Source: Cytophagales bacterium (GTDB taxonomy: Bacteria > Bacteroidota > Bacteroidia > Cytophagales > Cyclobacteriaceae). From it: a stretch of DNA of 26,128 nucleotides. Below the pieces are notes generated by a model, which had not been told where the DNA came from, searched no databases, and worked only from the letters and a program-made list of their open reading frames with translations. The DNA lies in assembly GCA_003500135.1 (NCBI GenBank), contig DNTA01000276.1:1-26128 (forward strand). The letters are read 5' to 3'. The translations under genes and the position numbers were made by a program. This document shows positions 1 through 18,757 of this stretch, in pieces (within the stretch, counting starts at the first letter, position 1; every line of letters begins with the position of its first letter).

Positions 1-25
1 AAAGTGATCAGGCCTTGGTAACAAC

Positions 26-235
26 AAATATATACTTAACTAAAAACAAGTATATATAAAAATGAAGTTAAGTATATACTTATTGTAGGATAAGTATATA
101 TATTATCTCAGAAAAGTATATATTTAATTTAATACAAGTATATATTTGTTTTCATAAAAGTATATACTTAAATTAAATAAAGTATATATTTGAACTGAAT
201 AAAGTATATATTTGAATCAAATAAAGTATATATAA
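26..235. repeat. 22-bp-period array of AT-rich AAGTATATA cores
   Basis: Ten cores start at 26, 48, 70, 92, 114, 136, 158, 180, 202 and 224, each exactly 22 bp after the last. Nine begin AAGTATATA and the first reads AAATATATACTT. The copies at 70 and 158 are the perfect 12-bp palindrome AAGTATATACTT; most others read AAGTATATATTT. The roughly 10 bp between cores vary, although the last few spacers resemble each other (ending in ata). No gene lies in 1-400. Beyond the array, 236-400 shows nothing recognisable. The spacing is close to two helical turns, so all cores face the same side of the helix. It could be a cooperative protein-binding array, a curved-DNA element or an iteron-like element; the sequence alone does not decide. 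Confidence 0.9.
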
Positions 236-18687: not shown

Positions 18688-18757
18688 GAAGTTTAAAGTT
18701 TAAGGTTTAAAGTTTAAGGTTTAAAGTTTAAGGTTTGAAGTTTCATGTTTGAAGTTT
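18688..18757. repeat. 7-bp tandem repeat, ten units
   Basis: Ten consecutive heptamers of the form RARGTTT: GAAGTTT, then AAAGTTT and AAGGTTT alternating three times, then GAAGTTT, CATGTTT and GAAGTTT. It lies between the convergent moaE and mobA-like genes, 4 bp after the moaE stop. It may vary in copy number by slippage. The remaining 18758-18862 shows no gene. Confidence 0.95.

Follow-up and report, generated by a model that had tools for sequence, protein, structure and literature searches.

The described systems closest to the locus reported here are plasmid iterons, with their Rep proteins, and plasmid centromeres. Iterons are direct repeats of ∼22 bp that occur in few copies beside the gene for the presumed binder, and centromeres place the small gene of a ParR, StbA, or SopB-type binder by a private phased repeat array. 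Both use protein folds other than HU. Canonical HU is mostly non-sequence-specific. The HU-HIG (HU_rel) proteins belong to the HU-IHF superfamily and were reportedly analyzed in a 2017 paper on that superfamily by Burroughs and colleagues. A limited literature search that covered few subscription papers returned, among the matches listed, neither a cognate DNA site for HU-HIG/HU_rel nor a pairing of HU_rel with a repeat array. Within the Bacteroidales, the BrickBuilt MITE of Porphyromonas gingivalis is described as an intergenic tandem array with a 23-nt period, the unit AGAYCATARTATCCTCTCRTRTG, and terminal inverted repeats, and the same paper mentions 22-nt repeats in strain W83 (PMC4596501).

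The window analyzed here is a whole contig (C188) of 26,128 nucleotides from a Cytophagales genome (G000) that is assembled in 332 contigs and is 94% complete. Near one end it carries a ten-unit, 22-bp array, which is probably (about three chances in four) a remote copy of the platform on which an HU-HIG (HU_rel) protein binds; the gene for this protein lies on a different contig of G000, C239. The resemblance to iterons lies in the ∼22-bp direct repeats in few copies beside a presumed binder gene; the differences are that the candidate binder is of the HU family, that the spacers diverge, and that the arrays are chromosomal and in some genomes lie far from the gene. Plasmid centromeres likewise pair a small binder gene with a private phased array, but here the fold is that of HU and no motor or ATPase partner recurs among the neighboring genes. 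A binder gene with its own phased array is a known design, which in this case would be built on the HU fold.

Architecture of the array

The features of the array and its surroundings are as follows, in window coordinates (a point in place of the strand means that none is assigned).

1..22, strand., identical to the terminal bases of contig C171; probable contig junction
26..245, strand., whole array: ten 22-bp units, each a 12-bp core (best form AAGTATATACTT) and a 10-bp variable AT-rich spacer
26..37, strand., core 1, AAATATATACTT
48..59, strand., core 2, AAGTATATATAA
70..81, strand., core 3, AAGTATATACTT, exact palindrome
92..103, strand., core 4, AAGTATATATAT
114..125, strand., core 5, AAGTATATATTT
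136..147, strand., core 6, AAGTATATATTT
158..169, strand., core 7, AAGTATATACTT, exact palindrome
180..191, strand., core 8, AAGTATATATTT
202..213, strand., core 9, AAGTATATATTT
224..235, strand., core 10, AAGTATATATAA
401..982, strand -, MiaE-like gene (PF06175), 3' end facing the array; context, outside the array

The first-pass annotation had placed the core starts at 26, 48, 70, 92, 114, 136, 158, 180, 202, and 224; all ten are correct, and the 22-bp register is exact. Tandem Repeats Finder reports positions 29-240 with a period of 22, 9.6 copies, and 0% indels. Within a 14-nt stretch, eight columns are invariant across the ten units, the corresponding figure being at most 2 in 2000 first-order Markov reshufflings of positions 1-245. 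The core opens with AAATATATA in the first copy and with AAGTATATA in the other nine, where it continues as CTT or TTT in the best forms of 7/9 and as other AT triplets in the remainder. As had been noticed, the palindrome AAGTATATACTT is exact in two of the ten cores; one mismatched pair is present in five more and two or three in the other three. The divergence of the spacers is equally real, with a mean pairwise identity of 0.44 for the last 10 bases of the unit vs 0.98 for the first nine, and the G+C content is 14% in the array vs 42% in the window. The proposal that all cores face one side of the helix holds roughly and not exactly, because 22 bp corresponds to ∼2.1 turns at 10.5 bp per turn and ten units therefore drift by most of one turn. 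With ten units at 22 bp, the array falls within the period class (21-23 bp, at least three units) of the HU_rel-linked arrays described below, and its core is palindromic, as in many of them.

A functionless AT-rich minisatellite produced by slippage is a very improbable origin: the units are tandem and head-to-tail, and in some genomes near-identical, but the cores are conserved against diverged spacers with zero indels, and such arrays are strongly associated with one gene family (see below). A CRISPR was rejected for the window array on the build of the repeats, which are 12-bp cores with 10-bp AT-rich spacers vs the near-identical repeats of at least ∼23 nt with unique spacers of a CRISPR. 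No RNA feature was found in the window at gathering thresholds. A separate 14-bp tandem repeat (GTTTAAAGTTTAAG, 4.8 copies) occupies window positions 18691-18757, intergenic and beside a molybdopterin-like gene cluster as read from the ORFs.

Flanking genes

The window array abuts the contig end. Extension to the left was checked, and contig C171, the probable neighbor, ends in a dnaB-like ORF (a label that comes from reading the ORF, not from a search) whose 3' end points towards the array. The array thus sits between this probable dnaB-like neighbor and the MiaE-like gene, without an adjacent HU_rel gene. Both flanking genes point at the array, so that no called gene starts there, and the earlier suggestion of an operator serving the left-hand gene is not supported.

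Same-core arrays and an HU-HIG gene in the source genome

G000 contains two additional arrays of this core and period, one of eleven units on contig C239 and one of ten units on contig C14. The C14 array, like that of the window, lies between convergent called genes. On C239, ∼27 bp separate the start of the array from the start codon of the HU_rel gene that follows it, which encodes 131 aa, and the palindromy of this array exceeds that of column shuffles (p = 0.003). Because no HU_rel gene stands next to the window array and one does stand beside the C239 array of the same core, we describe the window array as remote. The C239 protein scores above both curated cut-offs, with 107.6 bits against PF18291 (HU-HIG; gathering cut-off 26.2) and 75.1 bits against TIGR01201 (HU_rel; cut-off 68.6). 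A sequence search returned no close solved relative, only canonical HU and IHF chains. The AF2 model of a homologue (P0004, 50% identical to the C239 protein; pLDDT 92.9) predicts an HU fold extended by an N-terminal strand pair that canonical HU is not known to have. Among PDB entries, the model matches 4fmr (BVU_2165 of Bacteroides vulgatus) best, followed by HU and IHF chains.

Pairwise comparison of the three arrays reveals that differences are concentrated in the spacers. Core and spacer differ at 17/120 vs 45/100 positions between the window and C14, at 10/120 vs 52/100 between the window and C239, and at 15/120 vs 53/100 between C239 and C14 (p from 5e-7 to 5e-13). This far lower divergence of the core favors selection on core and register, and thus supports the first-pass view that core and spacing are selected over one of recent duplication. 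Index-by-index descent of the three arrays from one array is weakly indicated (best-offset permutation p of 0.04, 0.06, and 0.29). BLAST matches between the arrays are confined to the repeats and their immediate vicinity (query 26-253 at most), and flanks are not shared. BrickBuilt, an intergenic tandem array of similar period, was considered as an identity for the window array and, with other MITEs, is disfavored: the unit is different, and BLAST alignment among the G000 arrays extends little beyond the repeats.

The C239 array overlies the expected promoter region of its gene, unless the gene is transcribed from further upstream. TAnnTTTG, a promoter element of this phylum, has a single match in the 345 bp upstream of the gene, at -143 and inside the array, so that autoregulation of the C239 gene is plausible. 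Among the five HU_rel genes of G000, those on C239 and C192 have clear arrays, that on C233 has a weak three-copy array, and those on C190 and C275 have none. Directly 3' of the C239 HU_rel gene and on the same strand is a DUF4332 gene (L009:9428-10102); DUF4332 is absent from the 25 families displayed in the tally of HU_rel neighbors.

Arrays at HU_rel genes

In 60 genomes of the same family, HU_rel was detected at E ≤ 0.001 in nine, with 20 genes in total. A period scan around these 20 genes that was blind to the core ranked a period of 22 or 23 first at 11 of them, and the cores at these loci differ from that of the window (for example, TCTAGCGCTAGA, AGTCTGCGCAGACT, and ACATAGCTATGT). The main criterion for the de novo scan was five units with at least five conserved columns. 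By this criterion, an array is present at 16/34 HU_rel loci, all with periods of 21-23 bp (one at 21, 14 at 22, and one at 23), in a set that includes the discovery locus and of which 20 loci had been inspected while the idea formed. Bacteroidaceae-type loci have an array in 7/30 cases, six at 21-23 bp and one at 15 bp, and arrays remain a minority in this set at the stricter thresholds (7/30 and 11/30). At 44 canonical-HU control loci, taken from the weak matches of the TIGR01201 search, a single array was found, with a period of 24, and none at 21-23 bp.

For replication, 60 further HU_rel loci were compared with 40 stretches displaced by 20-30 kb in genomes of that set. Arrays of 21-23 bp were found at 14, 34, 39, and 43 of the 60 loci at four thresholds vs 0/40 each, affording Fisher p values of 6e-4, 1e-10, 1e-12, and 1e-14 for loci that derive partly from sister species and are to that extent not independent. 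Repeats of other periods numbered 1, 1, 1, and 2 of 60 vs 0, 1, 1, and 3 of 40 at the same thresholds. By a criterion looser than that of the main tests, an array is present at 93/130 HU_rel loci (22/34, 17/30, 48/60, and 6/6, the last six chosen because an array was already known there) and absent from the remaining 37/130. In the own family of the source genome, 14 of 16 HU_rel-bearing genera have at least one array by this looser criterion. The period is 22 in 77 of the 93 arrays, 21 in 12, and 23 in four, and the copy number ranges from 3 to 12 with a mode of 5. Relative to the HU_rel gene, 64 arrays lie upstream (median of 204 bp from the start), 28 lie downstream (median of 66 bp), and one lies inside. 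The apparent 21-bp array at L368 is a 7-bp microsatellite; it was left out of the palindromy test and kept in the 60-locus and 93/130 counts.

The association can also be approached from the repeat. Searching public genomes by pattern alone yielded at least 119 GTATATA arrays, with eight HU_rel genes in the flanks among the matches listed; for six of these eight, the distance to an array is at most 53 bp, and one of the six matches the family weakly, at 44 bits.

The genes neighboring HU_rel bear on a further interpretation, in which the arrays belong to a plasmid-derived partition or iteron system and act in segregation or replication like parC or iterons. We consider this reading improbable. 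The layout, a binder gene beside direct repeats of ∼22 bp, is that of iteron and centromere modules, and the pattern scan also picked up contigs of Lactococcus and Enterococcus with sets of 22-bp repeats that we take to be plasmid iterons. The candidate binder, however, is an HU-family protein, the contigs read as carrying housekeeping genes, and no NTPase or ATPase family that would indicate a partition centromere recurs among the 92 of 131 listed neighbors that were scanned. The iteron reading of the first-pass annotation fares no better, as the protein beside the home array is of the HU family and is not a replication initiator. Nor did any other conserved partner emerge, with no Pfam family occurring in more than three of the 92 neighbors.

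Against a control of 83 of 95 genes, the 92 HU_rel neighbors matched 130 PADLOC defense families, including type I methyltransferases, mad2/3/8, PtuA, and AriA, vs 17 families for the 83 control genes; this excess is a hint only, because one protein can match many families.

Palindromy and co-variation of core and protein

Palindromy beyond column shuffles (p ≤ 0.05) was found in 50 of the 92 arrays that entered the test (of 93), where 4.6 are expected. Core similarity rises with the similarity of the adjacent HU_rel protein. For the 74 of 93 arrays with at least four of six symmetric half-site matches, a Mantel test of protein identity against core similarity gives r = 0.28 (p = 0.0003), and restriction to pairs under 50% identity gives r = 0.11 (p = 0.001); the correlation is modest. 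The core of the nearest protein neighbor ranks in the top tenth for 36% of arrays, with 10% expected. Two proteins that are 52% identical, from a Chitinophagaceae and a Bacteroidales assembly (L124 and L103), have the common core TATATACC, and the C192 paralogue in G000, 43% identical to the C239 protein, is accompanied by a core that reads by eye as A[AT]GTAnnTAC[AT]T and has its half-site in common with the core of the window. A counter-example is the G597 protein (L346): its identity to the C239 protein is 50%, yet the core of its array is a different one, with GTTAACCGGTTAAC in the best unit. At L364, whose protein is 46% identical to that of C239, no clear array was found.

These relationships can be set against the possibility that some other DNA-binding protein of a more general kind (a nucleoid protein or a transcription factor) binds the arrays and controls the HU_rel genes, with HU_rel itself not reading the core. 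Such a protein would fit the 64 of 93 arrays that lie 5' of the gene, the cover that the C239 array gives to the region just upstream of its gene and to the sole TAnnTTTG match there, and the simple composition of the AT-rich cores. It is at odds with the 28 arrays that lie 3' of the gene, with paralogues in one genome that have different cores and even different periods (22 and 23 bp in G027), and with core similarity that tracks HU_rel similarity, and no second gene recurs beside the arrays. We therefore judge a general binder unlikely and favor the HU_rel protein itself as the reader of the core.

Proposed model

HU_rel genes often adjoin phased arrays with private cores, and from these observations we infer that HU_rel proteins bind the arrays. 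The first-pass annotation had raised the possibility that a dimeric protein binds here, in a cooperative array of the nucleoid-protein kind; this view is supported, and the likely binder is an HU-HIG protein. A two-fold symmetric HU_rel dimer would bind each 12-bp palindrome, and the 22-bp spacing (∼two helical turns) would place neighboring dimers on nearly the same face of the DNA, allowing cooperative binding. The cooperating dimers may then assemble into a nucleoprotein filament that is compact and bent. The home array spans the sequence ahead of the HU_rel gene, where such a filament could tune the expression of that gene. The two remote arrays of G000, both between convergent called genes, would be expected to serve nucleoid structure or to act as a bridge, and not as operators, a role that is drawn from very few cases.

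More tentatively, the HU-HIG family, which is expanded in parts of the Bacteroidota, may consist of sequence-specific histone-like proteins with private palindromic addresses at two-turn repeats. Gene and address would co-diverge, home arrays would provide self-control, and copied remote arrays would, for some of the proteins, mark a few chosen chromosome sites, so that a non-specific packing fold would have given rise to multi-channel addressing of the chromosome. For many HU_rel proteins, the cognate array beside the gene is a ready-made target for experiment. Should binding be confirmed, these proteins would show the HU fold at work in sequence-specific, address-like recognition, and the loci would form a natural set of protein-DNA pairs with fast-diverging specificity.

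Remote arrays and the distribution of the core

The closed genome G027 contains two home arrays of different period, each with a remote counterpart: a AAGCGCTT array (23 bp) beside its HU_rel gene and a second 0.9 Mb away, and a TAGCGCTA array (22 bp) beside its HU_rel gene and a second 0.3 Mb away. Elsewhere in this genome, only three isolated unit pairs were found, one of them with 23-bp spacing, and the reversed pattern gave zero matches. Aligned in register, the 23-bp home array and its remote counterpart agree at 54/60 core and 37/55 spacer positions, and the likeness continues ∼55 bp beyond the end of the array; the remote array is therefore an old copy. In G070 and G011 the home array is present and no remote array was found.

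The first-pass annotation had called for a search for the core in related genomes and had counted uniqueness to one assembly against selected spacing. For this core in the sampled relatives, such uniqueness is what was found, and the architecture recurs with other cores. Among 59 genomes of the same order (G000 included), matches outside G000 are scattered and have two or three mismatches, some being short 22-bp repeats with other sequences, and in the phylum draw 2/395 genomes match, one of which is G000. Similar GTATATA arrays are present in the Bacteroidales. Across the 132 GTATATA arrays among the matches listed, viral ones included, no orientation preference was seen (43 lie between tandem genes, 22 between divergent and 19 between convergent ones, 17 within a called ORF, and 31 at an edge). 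Several Bacteroidales assemblies (e.g., RUI084, Hs463_bin99, RUG14845, and RUG12444; L069-L185) each have several GTATATAC arrays with genome-specific flanking bases. The HU_rel gene itself is patchy in the family of the source genome, where 26/390 genomes have it at E ≤ 1e-10. It is numerous in some Bacteroidota, with 25/41 genomes of one Bacteroidaceae-type family exceeding the TIGR01201 cut-off, and patchy elsewhere, in 11/148 genomes of a phylum draw and 3/118 of an order draw.

An 82.9-kb contig of the IMG/VR viral collection (2602041664_000001) has three three-copy arrays of 22-bp period in which the window core takes the form of AAGTATATACTTT or a close variant:

L186:1468-1533, three-copy array
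L194:1637-1702, three-copy array
L197:3110-3175, three-copy array

The L186 array precedes, by ∼40 bp, an ORF that has a glycine-rich tail and scores 20.8 bits against HU-HIG, below the cut-off of 26.2.

Patchy genes, several arrays per genome in some Bacteroidales, a viral-collection contig with three window-core arrays, one near a sub-cut-off HU-HIG-like ORF, and a remote G027 array that is a diverged copy of its home array including ∼55 bp beyond it would all be in keeping with a selfish or mobile module, MITE-like or minisatellite-like, in which the HU_rel gene and its array are copied around the genome and the remote arrays are functionless debris. This account is compatible with HU_rel binding, and we regard it as possible but doubtful: the G000 arrays share no flanks by BLAST, and their cores and register are held while the spacers diverge, which would be unexpected of debris. 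For the window array, our preferred reading remains that of a remote platform for the C239 protein.

Arrays of related build were also noted in other settings. In G031, one dispersed element is present on two contigs (L051:1346-1587 and L059:1346-1587); it contains a degenerate 22-bp array whose core is again another one (AACCACGTGTGGTT-like), and an ORF near the array in L051 is RAYT-like by reading. Outside the Bacteroidota, on the Treponema saccharophilum plasmid pTS1, an HU-HIG gene (105.5 bits) has ACTGAG-type repeats of ∼21-22 bp on its upstream side (L332:2150-2259).
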